Origin: Caldifarciminota bacterium
Lineage (GTDB): Bacteria > Hydrothermota > Tepidihabitantia > Tepidihabitantales > CAIPLT01
Assembly: GCA_025061975.1 (NCBI GenBank)
Contig: JANXBB010000039.1
Location: forward strand, 1 to 11,052
Direction: 5' to 3'
Length of the DNA stretch: 11,052 bases
Shown: in pieces, positions 4,406 to 11,052 of the stretch
Layout of the letters: every line of letters begins with the position of its first letter
Numbering within the stretch: position 1 is the stretch's first letter
Notes under the pieces: model-generated
What the model was told of the DNA's origin: nothing
Databases searched by the model: none
The model's input: the letters and a program-made list of their open reading frames with translations, nothing else
Made by a program: the position numbers and the translations under genes

Positions 4406-5161
4406 ATGCGAATAAAAATAACACTTCAACCTCATACTAAAGAGTTACTTCTTCCTGTACATCACAATCACATACTTCAAGCATGTATTTACCGTAATCT
4501 TTCTTTAAGTCTTGCATATAAGATTCACAATTTTGGATATGTTTATGAAAAACGTCAATTTCGGATGTTTAATTTTTCTCGGCTCATAGGAAAATTTACA
4601 CACAAAGATAATAATATTTCGTTTTATGGTCCGATAACTTTGTGGATTTCTTCGCCTTTTACAGAAATTTTAGAATCATTCGCTGCTCATATAGCAAAAA
4701 AAGGCAAAATAAAAATTGGCGACAATTTTTGCGAAGTAGCAGGTATAGAAGTAATGTTTCTTGATAATTTCTCAGAATCAATTTTAATTAATACCCTTTC
4801 ACCCATAACTGCATATAGTACCTTGTTAACAGCTGATGGCAAAAAAAAGACATATTATTATTCACCGTACGAAGAGGATTTTTCAAGAATTATCCATCAA
4901 AACCTGTTAAAAAAATATTATATAGTAAACAAAAAACATCTTTTAGACAAAATAGAGCGTTTTTCTATTGTTCCAATAAAAGTTTCCAAAAAAAACGAAC
5001 ATATTATTTATTATAAAAATACATTAATTAAAGCGTGGTCGGGTATTTATAAACTAGAAGCACCCAAGGAGTTGATTAAAATAGGATTCGATAGCGGCTT
5101 AGGGAGTAAAAACAGTCAAGGATTTGGAATGATTGCGATATATAATAAAGAAAATCTTTAA
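4406..5161 (+). CDS. cas6: Cas6, CRISPR RNA-processing endoribonuclease
   Basis: A 251-residue protein of usual Cas6 length (220-270). Cas6 cuts the long CRISPR transcript within each repeat to give crRNAs. The N-terminal part has the family pattern LQACIYRNL followed by YKIHNFGY and the basic stretch EKRQFRMFNFSRL. Tyr29, His41 and Lys49 sit where Pyrococcus furiosus Cas6 has its catalytic Tyr31, His46 and Lys52. The C-terminus has the diagnostic glycine-rich loop GFDSGLGSKNSQGFGM (about residues 229-244). I chose the ATG at 4406: the upstream TTG at 4364 is the promoter -35 box and would add a 14-residue tail that Cas6 proteins lack. There is no room for a Shine-Dalgarno on the predicted short leader. 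First gene of the cas operon; cas3' follows after 10 bases. Confidence 0.92.
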   Translation: MRIKITLQPHTKELLLPVHHNHILQACIYRNLSLSLAYKIHNFGYVYEKRQFRMFNFSRLIGKFTHKDNNISFYGPITLWISSPFTEILESFAAHIAKKGKIKIGDNFCEVAGIEVMFLDNFSESILINTLSPITAYSTLLTADGKKKTYYYSPYEEDFSRIIHQNLLKKYYIVNKKHLLDKIERFSIVPIKVSKKNEHIIYYKNTLIKAWSGIYKLEAPKELIKIGFDSGLGSKNSQGFGMIAIYNKENL

Positions 5162-5171
5162 TTAATAAAAT

Positions 5172-6848
5172 ATGAATTGCAAAGAGTTTTATAATACATA
5201 TTTTAAAATACCTGCCCCATATCCTTATCAACAAGAAGTTTGGCAAGCTTTTTTAGATGGGAAATTCCCGATGTTTATAAAAGCACCTTCAGGAGCTGGA
5301 AAAACAGAATCAGTTGTAGCTCCGTTTCTCTATCAATTTATTGATTCAAAAATTTCCCTAGCTCCGCGACTAATTTATGTTTTACCAACGCGTGTCCTTA
5401 TCAACACTATTGCTAAAAGGTTGGAATCTTACAGTAAAGAAATTAATTCTTCAATCTCAGTAAATATTCAACACGGTGATACCCGTAACGATCCGTTTTT
5501 CATAGGTGATATTGTTGTAACAACTCTTGATCAATTTTTCTATGGATTTTGCCGTGCTAGCCGACAGGTGGGGCATCATATTGATATGCCGGCCGGTGCA
5601 ATTGCTTCTTCTATCGTAGTATTTGATGAAGCAAATATGTATCGTGACGAGCTTACATTTTCGATAATGCGGGCATTAATGGAAATTTTAGACCATAGTA
5701 AAATTCCGTTTATTGTTATGACGGCAACAATGCCGTCAAGTCTGAAGAATAGTTTATTTGAAAACATAAAATTAACTGAAGTGCTAAGTAAGGATACAGA
5801 GTTTAAGCAGAATAACACGATTAAATTTACTCTATTAGAAGAACCGCTAATTAAAAACGATGAAGTAGAAATACCAGACAGGATATTAGAAAAAATAAAA
5901 AATAAAAAAACTTTAATTGTACTTAATCAAGTGAGAAAAGCTCAACTGGTTTATAAAACGTTAACGAAACAGTTAAATTTAAGCGAAGATGAAATTGTAT
6001 TGTTACATTCGAGATTTACATTAGAGGACCGCACGGAACATGAAAATAAAGCTCTTGCACTTATTCCGAGTAGAAATAAGGATAAATTTCAATCCGAATC
6101 CCTGAATAAAAAGCGCGCAATAGTTGTATCTACACAAGTCCTTGAAGCCGGTATTGATTTTTCAGCTGAGCTTTTATTGACCGAGCTCGCTCCAGCAGAT
6201 AGTTTAGTCCAACGTGCGGGAAGGTGTGCTCGATATCAAGGCGAACAAGGCGAAATGATTGTTTTTGGGTTATATGAAAAAAAGGGCAAAAAAGAGGGTG
6301 AAAATAATGAAGATAAATGGCATTATCCATATACAAAGGAAGCCATAAAGGATACGGAAAGATGGTTAAAAGAGAATTCTTCTTTTGACATTAAGTCATT
6401 CAGTGATGCGTGTAAGTTTGTTGATTGTCTTAATTATTCAGTTAGTGATTATGAAGCCAAAGACATCTTGTTCGATCTTTACGAATGTGTGCTTTATGCC
6501 GATACAAAACCGGAAAATATCCAATTACGGAGTGGAAAACCTGTAACCATAGTTGTAGTAGGACCTTTTAGTAAAACGCAAAAAAGGGAGAAGGAGGAGA
6601 CAAAAATTCTTAATTGGATAAAATCTAACGATATTAGAAAAAAATCGTTTTGCGTTGATGTAGACTTTCTTTTAAGGCTAAAAGAGTTTATTAAAATTAA
6701 ATATGAACTCCGTTGGGATGATCAAAAAAACGAATACGTGGTAAAGGAGTTTTCTCAAGATGTTAAACCTTTTGCGAAATATCTTTTAGATAGCTCAAAT
6801 TATGATAAAACAATAGGGTTAAAAGATGACAGAGGATTATTTATATAG
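5172..6848 (+). CDS. cas3': Cas3', CRISPR-associated superfamily 2 helicase without HD domain
   Basis: A 558-residue helicase that would unwind DNA, using ATP, once the Cascade complex has bound a target. Motifs in order: PYPYQQEVWQ (Q-like, about 17-26), Walker A APSGAGKT (38-45), Ia PTRVLINT (72-79), TTLDQF (117-122), Walker B DEAN (152-155), III TAT (184-186), LHSRF (278-282), V STQVLEAGIDF (320-330) and VI LVQRAGRCAR (345-354). There is no nuclease domain at the N-terminus; the HD nuclease is the next gene, whose start overlaps this stop by 23 bases. Such a split is typical of subtype I-A. The Walker B box has Asn where most Cas3 helicases have His, an oddity noted separately. The C-terminal 150 residues are less conserved. 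No clear Shine-Dalgarno precedes the ATG. Confidence 0.93.
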   Translation: MNCKEFYNTYFKIPAPYPYQQEVWQAFLDGKFPMFIKAPSGAGKTESVVAPFLYQFIDSKISLAPRLIYVLPTRVLINTIAKRLESYSKEINSSISVNIQHGDTRNDPFFIGDIVVTTLDQFFYGFCRASRQVGHHIDMPAGAIASSIVVFDEANMYRDELTFSIMRALMEILDHSKIPFIVMTATMPSSLKNSLFENIKLTEVLSKDTEFKQNNTIKFTLLEEPLIKNDEVEIPDRILEKIKNKKTLIVLNQVRKAQLVYKTLTKQLNLSEDEIVLLHSRFTLEDRTEHENKALALIPSRNKDKFQSESLNKKRAIVVSTQVLEAGIDFSAELLLTELAPADSLVQRAGRCARYQGEQGEMIVFGLYEKKGKKEGENNEDKWHYPYTKEAIKDTERWLKENSSFDIKSFSDACKFVDCLNYSVSDYEAKDILFDLYECVLYADTKPENIQLRSGKPVTIVVVGPFSKTQKREKEETKILNWIKSNDIRKKSFCVDVDFLLRLKEFIKIKYELRWDDQKNEYVVKEFSQDVKPFAKYLLDSSNYDKTIGLKDDRGLFI

Positions 6849-7578
6849 CGCCACTAATGAAAAATATATTGAGCATATTTTAAATTGCCAAAATTACTTA
6901 AATAAAATTTATCCGCTGTTTGAATCTGTAATATTTAGAGTTCTAAACATTGATCAATATAATAAGAAAAATGTTCAAGAAGCTTTTGAGGCGATGATTA
7001 TTTATCATGATTTAGGTAAATTAACTGAACAATGGCAAAAAAACTTAAAAGAAAACAAACGACGCCCAGTTCATGCAACAATTGGGGCGGCTTATTTGTG
7101 GAAAACTTTACCACAAGGTTTAAAAGAACCGATAAGTTTTGCAGTCGCTATTCATCATACTGATAGTGGGCTTTTAAGTGATAACATTGAACGTCCTGAC
7201 GTTCAGGCAATAAAATCTCATATTGTAGATAACGAAGGAAAAATCAAATGGGCACAAAGAGAAGGAGCGTTTGAAGAGTTAAAAAATGAAGGCTTTTTCA
7301 ACACGGAAATTAATTCTCTTACGATTTATGATCTTAAAAAAATGGCTCGAGAATTACGCGAATGGGCTAGAGGGCGTTCCTTAAATGCTCAACATCACAA
7401 GCGACTTCAAGTAGCACTGTGCCATCATATCTTAAAATTATGCGATGTTTCTGCAGCCGGTGCAAGAAAAGATTGGGAAAATGAGACATGCGATCCTAAT
7501 AATTTATACGGTGGGTGGATTATGGTGGACAGTATAAAAAAATACGTAGAAAATAAAATTAAAACACAAAAGAATTGA
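6826..7578 (+). CDS. cas3'': Cas3'', CRISPR-associated HD-family nuclease
   Basis: A 250-residue HD nuclease, the DNA-cutting partner of the separate Cas3' helicase. Metal-ligand candidates follow the Cas3'' order: His17, the HD pair His61-Asp62 in IYHDLGKL, His83 in PVHATIGAAYLW, His110-His111 in AVAIHHTDSG, His200-His201 and Asp207 in LCHHILKLCDVSAAGARKDW. All appear intact, so an active nuclease is likely. The ATG at 6826 lies 23 bases inside the end of cas3' in another frame, with a modest AGGG at 6815-6818 as ribosome site; translation is probably coupled so that the two partners are made together. The stop (TGA at 7576) is 2 bases from the cas8 ATG. Confidence 0.9.
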   Translation: MTEDYLYSATNEKYIEHILNCQNYLNKIYPLFESVIFRVLNIDQYNKKNVQEAFEAMIIYHDLGKLTEQWQKNLKENKRRPVHATIGAAYLWKTLPQGLKEPISFAVAIHHTDSGLLSDNIERPDVQAIKSHIVDNEGKIKWAQREGAFEELKNEGFFNTEINSLTIYDLKKMARELREWARGRSLNAQHHKRLQVALCHHILKLCDVSAAGARKDWENETCDPNNLYGGWIMVDSIKKYVENKIKTQKN

Positions 7579-7580
7579 TT

Positions 7581-8933
7581 ATGACACAAGAGATATCTCT
7601 TTATACACCCCTGACAGGATATCCGGAACTTGAAGCGAAAATTGCTTATGGTCTTGCAAAAGTCGGTGTTGAATCTGCTGAGGTTGAGTCTATAACTATT
7701 GAGCCATTAGGGGGATGTTATAAAATTACTATTAACGGCACAAAAGACAAGCTTGAGTCAGCATTTAACACCATAATGCACCGACTGTTTTCTTCTAAAT
7801 TTATTCCCTTAAACACTCCTGGCGTTACCAGTAGAACAGCTTTAACACTTACTACACAGAAAAACGAAAAGTTTGAATTAGACGATTATTTTAGATTACC
7901 GGCGATTAATTTTAAAAATCAAACAAACGAACCAGTTTGCCGTCACGGAAAAAATACCGTAAGTGCTGTAATAGGACTTACAGCTTCCACGAGCTATCAT
8001 CATGAACGGGACTATATAAACGTAGATAACAAAAAAGAGAATGGAGAAATTCATAAAACTCATCGTCCTACTAATCCGAAAGAAATTTGTAAAACTTGCG
8101 CATTATTAGCACTATTAGGAACCTGGTCTACAACATTTATCTTTAACATAAAAGACCAAGAGGTTGTCATTACGCCAATTCTAAAGCAAAAGCTTGGTGG
8201 AGCTCAACTAATAAAATTGTTTTCTATTCAACATCAACTTAGGAACATTAAAATGACGGCTGATATCCCTTCCACTCTTATACCAATATTGGTACTTTCT
8301 AAGATACCTTCAAATTTAGAAGTTTTAAAAGACTTTGATTTACATATTGCTGTGTTAACTCGTCCTCAAGGATATCATGTTGATAGTCTATATATCGGAG
8401 CAACCGGAAAATATATTGAGTATTTAAACAATAACTCCTATAATATAGCTGCAATTGATAATATGTTTGAAAATAATGCGATTGAAGCACTTTCGGTATT
8501 AAATAATTTATTAATAACACGCCGAAAAGATATGCTTCTTAAATTCGCTCGTGTTTATGTAAGTCAAACATCTTCAGATAATTGGATTAATTTAATGTAC
8601 TATCAAACTGCAAAATATTTATCTGAGGAGGTGTGTATGATTAATAAAGAAATTATAAACAATAAAGCCATAAGCAGCCTGGCTCAAACTTTAAGGTATT
8701 TTGTTAAAGAAAGGAAATACCATTATGCCGATGATTTAAGAAACAGCCGGAAGGATTCCAAAGATTTTGAAGAAACTATTGTAAAGATGTTACGGGAAGC
8801 TCGATTGCGAAAAGAACAAGACGATAAGATACATTTACCCAATGATGAAGAGATAAAAGAAATATTTAATTTAGCTCAAGATAATTTTGATGATGTTAAA
8901 ACTTCAATAGTGTTATTAGCATTAGCAGGTTAG
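7581..8933 (+). CDS. cas8: Cas8 large subunit of a type I-A-like Cascade (Csa4/Cas8a2-like)
   Basis: A 450-residue protein in the position of the large subunit, between cas3'' and cas7. Large subunits recognise the PAM and help open target DNA; they diverge so much that the call leans on context. The N-terminus (SLYTPLTGYPELEAKIAYGL) resembles Csa4/Cas8a2 proteins as I remember them; a distant Cas8a1 or Cas8b relative is possible. Visible features: a Cys/His set (Cys120, His122, Cys170, Cys173 in ICKTCALL) that could hold zinc, a middle of mixed strands and helices, and an all-helical basic C-terminal 100 residues. That last part has its own strong ribosome site and in-frame ATG (Met353) and probably doubles as the small subunit. 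I prefer ATG 7581 over the in-frame TTG at 7575, which overlaps cas3''. The stop codon lies in a 12-base tandem repeat. Confidence 0.75.
   Translation: MTQEISLYTPLTGYPELEAKIAYGLAKVGVESAEVESITIEPLGGCYKITINGTKDKLESAFNTIMHRLFSSKFIPLNTPGVTSRTALTLTTQKNEKFELDDYFRLPAINFKNQTNEPVCRHGKNTVSAVIGLTASTSYHHERDYINVDNKKENGEIHKTHRPTNPKEICKTCALLALLGTWSTTFIFNIKDQEVVITPILKQKLGGAQLIKLFSIQHQLRNIKMTADIPSTLIPILVLSKIPSNLEVLKDFDLHIAVLTRPQGYHVDSLYIGATGKYIEYLNNNSYNIAAIDNMFENNAIEALSVLNNLLITRRKDMLLKFARVYVSQTSSDNWINLMYYQTAKYLSEEVCMINKEIINNKAISSLAQTLRYFVKERKYHYADDLRNSRKDSKDFEETIVKMLREARLRKEQDDKIHLPNDEEIKEIFNLAQDNFDDVKTSIVLLALAG
8626..8633 (+). promoter_or_regulatory. Strong internal Shine-Dalgarno within cas8
   Basis: AGGAGGTG matches eight bases of the canonical anti-Shine-Dalgarno and lies 5 bases (from GGAGG) before the in-frame ATG at 8637. 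It is written in the cas8 frame as GAG GAG GTG, in a gene that otherwise mostly uses GAA for Glu, which suggests selection for the site itself. Geometry is the same as that of the cas7 start. Confidence 0.75.
8637..8933 (+). CDS. cas11: Predicted internal Cas11 small subunit (C-terminal 98 residues of cas8)
   Basis: This 98-residue product shares frame and stop with cas8 and would start at its Met353. It is predicted from the strong Shine-Dalgarno immediately upstream and from the lack of any separate small-subunit (csa5) gene among the visible cas genes. The sequence is almost wholly helix-forming and rich in Lys/Arg in its first half (LRYFVKERKYHYADDLRNSR, then VKMLREARLRKEQ), as expected of Cas11, which lines the Cascade belly and contacts target DNA. 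Independent translation of Cas11 from the end of cas8 is established for subtypes I-B, I-C and I-D. Here it is inference from sequence. It is somewhat short for a Cas11 (usually about 110-150 residues). The alternative is a chance site with a C-terminal domain acting only as part of Cas8. Confidence 0.65.
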   Translation: MINKEIINNKAISSLAQTLRYFVKERKYHYADDLRNSRKDSKDFEETIVKMLREARLRKEQDDKIHLPNDEEIKEIFNLAQDNFDDVKTSIVLLALAG

Positions 8934-8968: not shown

Positions 8969-8974
8969 GGAGGT
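8969..8974 (+). promoter_or_regulatory. Strong Shine-Dalgarno deciding the cas7 start
   Basis: GGAGGT ends 4 bases before the ATG at 8979. It overlaps an earlier in-frame ATG (8967), which would add only four residues; the ribosome site therefore favours 8979 as the true start. Confidence 0.75.
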
Positions 8975-8978
8975 AAAA

Positions 8979-9977
8979 ATGCTTAAATTTGTAACATTTG
9001 CAGTTAAATTGCAGCTTAATGTTCATGACTTAAACAACGAAGCGTGCACAGGAAATGTTACTGACATTAGAGTTATTGATTTTCTTAATGAGAATGGCGA
9101 AAAAGTGGAAGCACCAGCTGTATCAGGTCGGATGTTGAAACACTGGCACTATGAATTATTAAGAAATCTCGGGATACAAAAAGATTTAAGTTTCTGCGAT
9201 GCTTGTAAAATTGGCGAGCCGGTGAGGCCGGCTATTTTAAAGGATGGTAAATTATCACACGAGGAAGCAGTCAAAAAAGAACCCGGCGAGATTGTTAAAA
9301 GCAGCAAGATTGTTGAAAGGTGCGCTATTTGTGACATTCATGGGTTTTTAGCAGCAGTGCGTGAAACTTCAGAGCGGCGCAGTTCGCGGGTTATGTTTTC
9401 ATGGCTGCTACCAACCTTAGATAGTGTATCAGTTACCAAACAAGTAATACATTCTCGGGTTAAAAGTGGGATAGATTTTGAAGATGAGAAATTAACTTCA
9501 CAAATGCCTTTTAACAAATCATATGCTTCTGGAATTTATGGTTTTGTTTCAGCGTTTGATGTAGACCGAGTCGGTCTTATAGAATTAAATTTGGGGAAAA
9601 ATATTTCTGAGACAAAAAAAGAGGATAAAAATTCTAATCCTGAAGATAAAAAAAATGATGATGATGAACGCCAAAAACGCATTAAGTTAGCAATTGAGGC
9701 TTATAGACATCTGATTTCAGGTAAAATGGGGGCATCGCTTTCTCATGCAATTCCTCACGTTGATCCTATTGAAATTCTTGTAGTCTATTCCGAAAAAGGT
9801 CCATTACCATTTCCTGTTTCGCCAATCTATAGTGATTATATTAAAAAAACCATGGGTTTGGTTCCTCAAGACTCAAAATGTTTATTCTGGAGCAAAGATC
9901 AAAAAGAGGTTGAGGGGATTGAAAAAGTAAATTCAATTAACGATCTCTTCGGCAGGTTATTAGATAAGGTTAGATAA
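8979..9977 (+). CDS. cas7: Cas7 backbone subunit of Cascade (Csa2/DevR family)
   Basis: A 332-residue member of the Cas7/DevR family, whose copies polymerise along the crRNA to form the backbone of the interference complex. Family signs: the N-terminal strand KFVTFAVKLQLNVHDLNNE, GNVTDIRVIDF, the motif APAVSGRMLKHWHY (about 45-58), RCAICDIHGFLA (114-125), and SSRVMFSWLLPTLD (135-148). Later, LISGKMGASLSHAIPHVDP (245-263) fits the conserved core. Two CxxC pairs (Cys73/Cys76 and Cys115/Cys118) could form a zinc site. A highly charged, probably disordered insertion lies at about 208-236. I start at ATG 8979 because GGAGGT sits directly upstream; ATG 8967 is an alternative. It is separated from cas8 by 45 bases, the longest gap among the cas genes, and from cas5 by 36. 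The stop lies in a short tandem repeat. Confidence 0.92.
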   Translation: MLKFVTFAVKLQLNVHDLNNEACTGNVTDIRVIDFLNENGEKVEAPAVSGRMLKHWHYELLRNLGIQKDLSFCDACKIGEPVRPAILKDGKLSHEEAVKKEPGEIVKSSKIVERCAICDIHGFLAAVRETSERRSSRVMFSWLLPTLDSVSVTKQVIHSRVKSGIDFEDEKLTSQMPFNKSYASGIYGFVSAFDVDRVGLIELNLGKNISETKKEDKNSNPEDKKNDDDERQKRIKLAIEAYRHLISGKMGASLSHAIPHVDPIEILVVYSEKGPLPFPVSPIYSDYIKKTMGLVPQDSKCLFWSKDQKEVEGIEKVNSINDLFGRLLDKVR

Positions 9978-10013: not shown

Positions 10014-10775
10014 ATGAAAGCGGTTGTTTTTGATATCCGAGTCAACTCACTTTTCTCAATCCGAGTCCCTTACACCTGGCAATCAGCACTAAGTTATGTG
10101 TTGCCCCCTCCTTCTTCAATTATTGGTCTTGTTGCTAACGCGGTGCAACGTTATAATAATGACAAACATCCCCTTGAATATCTAAAGCAAGTTGAAAATT
10201 TAGTTGAATGGGCTGGAGCAAAATTACTTACGCCGGCAGTAACTAAAAGCTATACTACATCGGCGATTACTAAATGGTTATACGCAATCGGTGAAAAAGC
10301 AACCAATGTTTTAGGTAGGCAATATGTATATACAAAAAATATTAGAATAGCGATTGTTGTAAATGATGCGTCATTTGCAGAGGGGCTTAAAGATATTCTA
10401 AAAGTTACTCCTTTAACCTGCGGTGATAGCGAATCGCTTGTTTCAGTAGAAGATGTTTTAGTCTTTAATGCAGAAAAATTAGAGTATAAAAAAGATGAAG
10501 AAGTTGTAACTGAATACCCGGCGATTTTAGATTTTAATAAAATAGAACTTATTAACGGTGGAGGGCTGATCTATCCGATGCATAAAAGATGTTTGAAAGC
10601 TGAGCCAACCAAGACAAAAAAGGGCTCCAAAGGTGAATCAAGTTATCCGCTTTATAATTATATTCTGCCGGTTTCAAGCAAAGAATGCATTTTTTACCCA
10701 TCTAGTTTGACATTTAAAGTGAAGGATACAATTTACGGTTATAAGATTGATCATATCGGAAAGGTTATTATTTAG
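10014..10775 (+). CDS. cas5: Cas5 subunit of Cascade (subtype I-A-like)
   Basis: A 253-residue Cas5 protein, which caps the 5' handle of the crRNA and joins the Cas7 backbone to Cas8. The N-terminus has the RAMP-type strand MKAVVFDIRVNSLFSIRVP followed by the Cas5 signature SYVLPPPSSIIGLVANAV (about 27-44). CGDSESLVSV at 117-126 is a typical Cas5a motif, and the C-terminal region has NYILPVSSKECIFYPSSLTF. I chose the ATG at 10014; a GTG at 10005 in the same frame would add three residues. Neither has a recognisable Shine-Dalgarno, in contrast to cas7. The gene follows cas7 by 36 bases and ends 5 bases before the cas4 frame, in keeping with one operon. Length is normal for the family and no disrupted motif is seen. 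Confidence 0.9.
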   Translation: MKAVVFDIRVNSLFSIRVPYTWQSALSYVLPPPSSIIGLVANAVQRYNNDKHPLEYLKQVENLVEWAGAKLLTPAVTKSYTTSAITKWLYAIGEKATNVLGRQYVYTKNIRIAIVVNDASFAEGLKDILKVTPLTCGDSESLVSVEDVLVFNAEKLEYKKDEEVVTEYPAILDFNKIELINGGGLIYPMHKRCLKAEPTKTKKGSKGESSYPLYNYILPVSSKECIFYPSSLTFKVKDTIYGYKIDHIGKVII

Positions 10776-10780
10776 GTGAG

Positions 10781-11052
10781 TTGGATACAATAACCGGAAC
10801 ATTGATTTGGTATTATAATATTTGCAAAAGAGAAGTGTGGCTTTTAGCTCACGAAATAACCCCCGACCCAGATAATCAGCTAATTCAACTCGGTAGTCTT
10901 ATCCACTCTGAAGCGTATCCACAAGAGAAGAAAGGATGGGAAACCGCAGGAATGAAGATAGATATTATTAAACGAGTTGGGAAACAGATTATTGTTGGCG
11001 AAATTAAAAAATCTGATCGATTTTTGGAAGCAGCAAAAATGCAGCTTTTGTT
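10781..11052 (+). CDS. cas4: Cas4 nuclease, N-terminal part (truncated by window end)
   Basis: Ninety codons of a Cas4 are visible before the window ends. Cas4 is a RecB-like, iron-sulfur nuclease that helps select and trim prespacers by their PAM, together with Cas1 and Cas2. The family start ITGTLIWYYNICKREVWLLAH is present, with Cys15 the first iron-sulfur ligand. GSLIHSEAY holds His42, and the nuclease core shows Asp61 (MKIDI), then Glu74 and Lys76 in VGEIKKS, with Gln88 in AAKMQLL; all are expected RecB-type active-site residues. The start is uncertain: no ATG is available between the in-frame stop at 10748 and the family start. TTG at 10781 gives LDTITGTL and is my choice; AGGTGAG lies immediately before it, too close for an ideal ribosome site. 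cas1 and cas2 are expected next. Confidence 0.9.
   Translation, partial: MDTITGTLIWYYNICKREVWLLAHEITPDPDNQLIQLGSLIHSEAYPQEKKGWETAGMKIDIIKRVGKQIIVGEIKKSDRFLEAAKMQLL

Follow-up and report, generated by a model that had tools for sequence, protein, structure and literature searches.

The window, by which we mean the whole stretch of DNA that was analysed, is a contig of 11,052 bases that carries, all on the + strand, the end of a putatively SprA-like gene, a comEA-like gene, and then cas6, cas3', cas3'', cas8, cas7, cas5 and the start of cas4. The features of this operon are as follows.

4406..5161, + strand: cas6; the ORF opens at TTG 4364 and the family match begins at residue 15 (TIGR01877, E 1.6e-35; Cas6_I-A PF21350, E 2.3e-8)
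5172..6848, + strand: cas3' (helicase, separate gene; TIGR01587, E 3.4e-61)
6826..7578, + strand: cas3'' (HD nuclease, separate gene; TIGR01596, 55.4 bits against a cut-off of 43.45)
7581..8933, + strand: cas8a-cas11a gene; 450 aa from ATG 7581, the ORF being also readable from TTG 7575
7581..8636, + strand: Cas8a part (large subunit proper)
8626..8633, + strand: internal Shine-Dalgarno AGGAGGTG; dG -14.4 kcal/mol, the strongest among the window starts examined
8637..8933, + strand: cas11a, predicted internally started small subunit of 98 residues
8969..9977, + strand: cas7 with its Shine-Dalgarno GGAGG (GGAGG 8969-8973; gene from ATG, 8979-9977); PF01905, E 7.6e-57; dG -10.7
10014..10775, + strand: cas5; ORF from GTG 10005; TIGR01874 Cas5a, 31.1 bits against a cut-off of 23.05
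10781..11050, + strand: cas4, cut by the contig end; PF01930, E 2e-24

By its profile matches, this operon is a bacterial type I-A CRISPR-Cas system. As type I-A requires, cas3 is split into helicase and HD nuclease genes, for which TIGR01587 and TIGR01596 are both above cut-off. The cas7 product matches the DevR/Csa2 family PF01905 well above cut-off, its best NCBIfam match (TIGR02583) being below it, with 146.8 bits against 212.6, and the best PADLOC match of cas6 is Cas6b (PDLC01782), from residue 15.

As for the cas8 product, profile matches, whose residue numbers are counted from TTG 7575, divide it into two parts. A large subunit is present, with the PADLOC Cas8a profile PDLC01216 on residues 7-334 (E 2e-104). 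The remainder is covered by the PADLOC Cas11 profile PDLC01215, labelled as a CAS-III-B small subunit, on residues 336-450 (E 1e-51), and by the NCBIfam Csa5 model TIGR01878 on residues 340-451 (67.9 bits against a cut-off of 53.35), a model that starts about 16 residues upstream of the internal Met; the Pfam family PF21681 (Csa5_I-A) is below its cut-off on cas8, at 14.7 versus 30.3 bits. For comparison with solved structures we used 7tr6, the type I-A Cascade of Pyrococcus furiosus, in which we take chain C to be Cas8a and chains D and E to be Cas11a. A sequence profile of the Cas11 part matches Cas11a of 7tr6 (E 5.8e-5) and SSO1398 (E 0.0033), while a sequence profile built on the whole protein matched no solved chain. 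In the AlphaFold model of the cas8 product (pLDDT 90.6), the match to 7tr6_C stops at model residue 355, which is the internal Met, and the solved small subunits begin at residues 356-359. The fold predicted for the 98-residue product, which had been proposed to be a hidden small subunit, agrees with that of Csa5/Cas11a; a Foldseek search with the 98-residue model alone gave no match at E <=0.001, the best having E 0.13 with a probability of 1.00. On the NCBIfam and PADLOC profiles and the predicted fold, the residues after the internal ATG are Csa5/Cas11a and, in the model, this ATG sits at the joint between the Cas8a and Cas11a domains.

The original prediction placed a ribosome-binding sequence, AGGAGGTG (8626-8633), and an in-frame ATG (8637-8639) inside cas8. 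This is what the window holds, with five bases between GGAGG and the ATG, from which 98 codons run in the cas8 frame to a stop at 8931-8933. The arrangement GGAGG-N5-ATG occurs twice on the two strands of the window, at 8627 and at the cas7 start (8969), where 0.13 are expected, and two were reached in one of 200 dinucleotide shuffles of the window. With the looser spacing N4-8, two are found versus 0.67 expected and 28 of 200 shuffles are as high, which is unremarkable in the window alone. It had also been argued that GAG is used around the site in a gene that favours GAA; the preference exists, mildly (20 GAA versus 11 GAG), and within one gene it is weak evidence. We rejected the argument from the window only (GAG bias and looser spacing) as weak: since the looser-spacing count is ordinary and GAA exceeds GAG so little, a single sequence could not settle the question, and the weight rests on the comparison of homologues. 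The product has the 98 residues foreseen but is not basic as had been claimed, with 18 K/R against 19 D/E, a pI of 6.12 and a charge of -1.3; a basic Cas11 product was rejected, the charge being positive in just 7 of 30 alignment rows, window included. The predicted local RNA structure pairs the internal ATG, with a mean unpaired probability of 0.06 for the ATG and 0.46 for the Shine-Dalgarno site, and counts against initiation there. Frameshifting at the site was set aside because the frame is open across it in homologues and the ATG would be unneeded.

Among the 7995 best-scoring word candidates, we found at least 119 homologous proteins, mostly of 440-490 residues. Met occupies the internal-start column in 118 of the 119 found, the other (P0118) having a gap there. 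Three of five short database homologues (P0120, P0122 and P0123; 112-124 residues) start exactly at the internal Met and may be true split genes, or gene calls that pick the internal start behind upstream errors. As DNA, 29 genes were read, including that of the window. They derive from 34 distinct matching ORFs, of which L019, L025, L026 and the first piece of the broken L043 are without the region and L032 is a distant orphan, and they take in near-copies (L004/L034 and L017/L018), a contig-edge fragment (L024) and the downstream piece of L043. In L043 (genome G632), the first part of cas8-11 is broken by stops, and the downstream piece has the internal site and an open cas11 frame.

All 29 genes display an ATG behind a purine-rich stretch containing GGAG. 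This ATG is found at the aligned codon in 27 of them and one codon later in the two most distant (L044 and L037), and always 5-8 bases 3' of the GGAGG/GGAGA core. Codon 349 is AAG, AGG, GAG or CAG throughout, and codon 350 is GAG in 27 genes and AGG in the near-identical pair L017/L018, so that GGAG persists while residue 349 varies between K, R, E and Q, and residue 350 between E and R. Measured against each gene's own codon use in 24 representatives less than 80% identical, picked from 26 genes after the broken L043 and the distant L044 and L037 had been set aside, the two codons reach log10 P values of -13.5 (349) and -12.0 (350). In a per-column codon test, codons 350, 349 and 351 rank second, third and fourth of 459 columns. 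The first rank, above the site, is held by Arg324 (window 8550-8552), which is CGN in 27 of 29 genes though AGA and AGG dominate elsewhere in these genes. Across 429 degenerate columns in 24 genes (L043, L044, L037, L018 and L004 left out), the third base is invariant at 349 and 350 only, which are also the only columns with G in at least 90%. This fixed G is the disfavoured base in these genes, where AAA occurs 633 times versus 259 for AAG, and GAA 562 times versus 268 for GAG.

Codons 322-348 are also conserved above average, with a mean third-base majority of 0.68 versus 0.56, and this, together with column 324 outranking the site, means that some regional constraint or recombination is present. 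We therefore thinned the set by flanking DNA identity. All six genes with flanks less than 65% identical keep the pattern, which reads AAG, GAG or CAG followed by GAG in five and AGG AGG in one. The ATG and the ribosome site are kept beyond the amino-acid constraint in close and distant homologues, and selection for the ribosome site, as originally claimed, is supported by this comparison (invariant G at codons 349 and 350), the codon bias of this one gene being weak evidence.

Shine-Dalgarno strengths were computed with assumed anti-Shine-Dalgarno letters that may not be the window host's own; a search for 16S rRNA in the window's genome (89% complete) gave no match, so the host's own letters could not be read. 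The internal start has a median dG of -13.8 (29 genes) versus -5.5 for the cas8 start (27 genes, since L024 and L043 are without that start), and the internal site is the stronger one in 26 of 27 genes, with L037 as the exception. The internal sites of L021 and L037 are weaker (-8.0 and -7.4). None of 144 other in-frame ATGs reaches -13.8, the best being at -9.3, and of 647 other ATGs in any frame, 2 reach -13.8 and 19 reach the weakest internal site (-7.4). For the remaining cas genes, whose starts in relatives were assigned by script, uncurated, and in sets that take in near-copies, cas7 starts have a median of -12.2, with 28 of 28 at or below -9. Medians are weaker for cas5 (-3.8), cas3' (-4.5), cas3'' (-7.1), cas4 (0.4, n=7) and cas6 (0.1, n=3), and -9 is reached by 2 of 23 cas5, 4 of 16 cas3' and 3 of 21 cas3'' starts. 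The order in the window is internal cas11 (-14.4), cas7 (-10.7) and then the remaining scored starts at -4.8 or weaker, cas6 being scored from TTG only; most starts examined there have a weak or absent Shine-Dalgarno, and the upstream start of cas8 has almost none.

The strong sites are those of cas7 and the internal cas11, few other cas starts having one, and this distribution parallels the copy number of the subunits. Cas7 is a multi-copy subunit in type I-A. The same is stated for Cas7 of I-D in an excerpt of PMC10212523, and Cas11 is multi-copy as well, with five copies in a solved I-A complex (excerpt of PMC11899642).

It had been stated that no csa5 gene lies between cas6 and cas4, and indeed none does. 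As the contig ends inside cas4, the Csa5 profile was also run over the window's genome and over relatives to cover what lies past that end. In the window's own genome (89% complete), TIGR01878 has one match, inside cas8, and finds no separate csa5 elsewhere. Together with 20 others this makes 21 genomes, chosen as carriers of the fused gene, in which the sole significant TIGR01878 match is inside cas8: the best match lies in the fused frame in all 21, above cut-off in 18, and no match elsewhere is better than E 0.033. In a control, the same profile reached its cut-off in 0 of 14 known genomes, S. acidocaldarius giving one of the weak matches; a csa5 that has diverged may therefore have escaped it. 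Searched with a profile of the Cas11 part, the loci show, over their available length, no short ORF next to an intact operon; the short-ORF matches are the contig-edge L024, the downstream piece of the broken L043 and an orphan in L032. The latter, on the minus strand of L032 at about 1506-1923 (genome G143, of the window's phylum), is a 139-residue frame that resembles Cas11 (E 3e-12), lies among non-cas genes and is possibly an orphan small subunit. By profile search, csa5 as its own gene, the feature with which two papers describe type I-A, was not detected here.

We put at about 0.88 the probability that the single frame of cas8 makes two proteins, namely Cas8a with a C-terminal Cas11 domain and a free Cas11a from ATG 8637; the original prediction of an internal Cas11 is very probably right. 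It had named three outcomes that would speak against it, and it withstood all three checks: the ATG and ribosome site are not lost in close homologues, the profiles detect no separate csa5, and the predicted fold is that of Cas11. The upstream start, almost without Shine-Dalgarno in the window, would give Cas8a with its C-terminal Cas11 domain, and at the strong internal Shine-Dalgarno at the domain joint, ribosomes would start again at ATG 8637 to give free Cas11a (Csa5). We infer that this site is used, that free Cas11a would be in excess over Cas8a, and that several Cas11a copies would line the inner face of the complex, adjoining the Cas11 domain that Cas8a carries, just as the five Cas11 copies of the solved I-A structure do.

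Cas11 might instead be only a fused C-terminal domain as in I-F and I-G, which an excerpt of PMC13199841 describes with the fusion and without a separate small subunit, and the purine-rich stretch, located as it is at the domain joint, might be a ribosome pause that aids folding and not a site of initiation. However, pausing needs no ATG, yet one stands 5-8 bases past the core in every one of the 29 genes and, in L044 and L037, where it is one codon further on, it is still within initiation distance. Moreover, the internal site equals the cas7 start of these operons in strength, and the solved I-A complex holds five copies of Cas11 (excerpt of PMC11899642), all of which makes the fused domain with a pause site an unlikely explanation. 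The conserved bases could also be due to constraint on the protein, or to recent exchange of DNA across the joint, rather than to selection for initiation. Such an origin would account for the raised third-base conservation of codons 322-348, with codon 324 first of 459, and for the many inferred breakpoints near the joint, but the pattern is found in 6 of 6 genes whose flanks are less than 65% identical, the fixed third base is the disfavoured G, and residues 349 and 350 change where the GGAG bases stay. We consider it very unlikely. Proteolysis of the fusion at the joint could likewise release a free Cas11, and a Cas8b fragment was once read as protein fragmentation (excerpt of PMC11899642), but cleavage depends on neither an ATG nor a Shine-Dalgarno site, and the bases of both are kept more strictly than coding requires. 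Of the readings weighed here, proteolysis is the least probable.

McBride et al. 2020 reportedly described the internally translated Cas11 of types I-B, I-C and I-D. Internal Cas11 is named for I-D, I-B and I-C in an excerpt of PMC10212523, and part of a 2026 paper (PMC13199841) gives I-A a separate cas11, I-F and I-G a fused one, and I-B, I-C and I-D an internal one. A separate gene is also the source of Cas11 in I-A and I-E according to an excerpt of PMC11899642. In 2011 it was noted that some large subunits assigned to I-A to I-D may hold the small subunit at their C terminus (excerpt of PMC3150331). Our full-text searches returned, by title or abstract start among the matches listed, no report of an internal Cas11 in type I-A. 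A predicted internal Cas11 start in the I-B system of T. maritima gave no product in E. coli (excerpt of PMC13199841), so a candidate site need not work everywhere.

The arrangement described here differs from that of solved type I-A complexes. In 7tr6, Cas11a (108 residues) is a chain of its own beside the large subunit, of which the structure has 333 residues, whereas here there is one gene of 450 residues, with a free Cas11a predicted. Similarly, Csa5 of Sulfolobus solfataricus (3zc4) and the small subunits of the type I-A aCascade structures 9cro, 9crp and 9crq, whose chains we assign by size and fold, were solved as separate chains, whereas here the counterpart lies inside cas8a. Like the internal Cas11 of I-B, I-C and I-D, this one has start signals that lie in frame towards the 3' end of the large-subunit gene and are more conserved than coding demands, and a small-subunit fold; unlike those systems, which have other Cas8 or Cas10d families, it combines a I-A Cas8a with a Csa5-family Cas11. 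It resembles I-F and I-G in that the small subunit is fused to the large one (excerpt of PMC13199841), but in those types no separate small subunit is described there, while here the start signals of one are conserved. Internal Cas11 translation being known for I-B, I-C and I-D, what is new, as far as the papers searched go, is its very probable occurrence in type I-A, across a broad family, and this departs from papers of 2025 and 2026 that give the type I-A Cas11 its own gene. If it is true for bacterial I-A, internal translation would extend to a fourth subtype, and whether Cas11 is 'separate' or 'internal' would cease to follow from the subtype. Moving such systems into eukaryotic cells would then probably require Cas11a to be supplied as its own gene.

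By homology, the gene is a member of a widespread, mainly bacterial Cas8a-Cas11a fusion family, carried by Thermodesulfovibrio, Thermodesulfobacterium, WOR-3, Aerophobetes, Caldicoprobacter and a few archaeal contigs. The genes read as DNA include those of two cultured carriers, Thermodesulfobacterium thermophilum DSM 1276 (L004) and Caldicoprobacter oshimai DSM 21659 (L018). Under the name 'type I-A CRISPR-associated protein Csa5', which the sources give to many whole fusions, the Cas8a part (the large subunit) is hidden. The proposal of an internal Cas11 in an I-A-like operon with split Cas3 is supported, but it is not peculiar to this genome, being typical of a large family. The distribution is sporadic: it is carried by 3 of 100 relatives and, within the phylum of the host, by 6 of 147 genomes, counting that of the window and G143 with its partial match, and three other phylum searches gave 4 of 395, 6 of 395 and 2 of 17 genomes, including known genomes and the distant forms G374 and G856. 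A scan of genome contigs found none with a single protein query and 23 loci with an alignment query, and a search of viral contigs and plasmids found no relatives.

Cas8a backbones appear to have traded their Cas11 parts, in many cases with the junction close to the internal start. Cas11 type 'B' (L015-L018) forms one clade in the tree of the C part (support 100/100) and needs three changes in the tree of the Cas8a part, at least two of them forced by well-supported branches. The deep Cas8a clade L020-L023 (100/100) is scattered in the C tree, where just 2 of 20 inner branches are well supported. P0100 and P0075 are 96% identical in the Cas8a part and 38% in Cas11, the Cas11 of P0100 being 91% identical to that of P0104, and P0116 and P0013 are 97% identical in Cas11 and 40% in Cas8a. 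From 13 trios, in which some proteins are reused, 9 breakpoint intervals are within residues 332-362 and 4 are earlier (263-315), P0113 giving both answers with different donors. The proteins that appear to show exchange are P0090, P0096, P0098-P0102, P0104, P0105 and P0112-P0116, and the loci are L015-L018 and L020-L023; chimeric assembly could account for the exchanges in metagenome proteins, and possibly for those in MAG loci. Tentatively, and at somewhat less than even odds, we propose that cas11 of bacterial type I-A, a gene nested within another, behaves as a cassette that moves from one Cas8a backbone to another, with exchange points close to the ribosome site that it carries. In the same reading, the copy ratio of the subunits in the complex would be set by how strong the successive ribosome sites of the operon are (strong at cas7 and internal cas11, mostly weak at the rest), and the separate csa5 of archaea may have arisen from the fusion or have given rise to it. 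The cas8 gene of L016, labelled 'candidate division WOR-3 bacterium', is identical to that of G114, which belongs to the same phylum as the window's genome, and the Aerophobetes genome G961 holds two diverged copies of the fused gene (L007 and L013).
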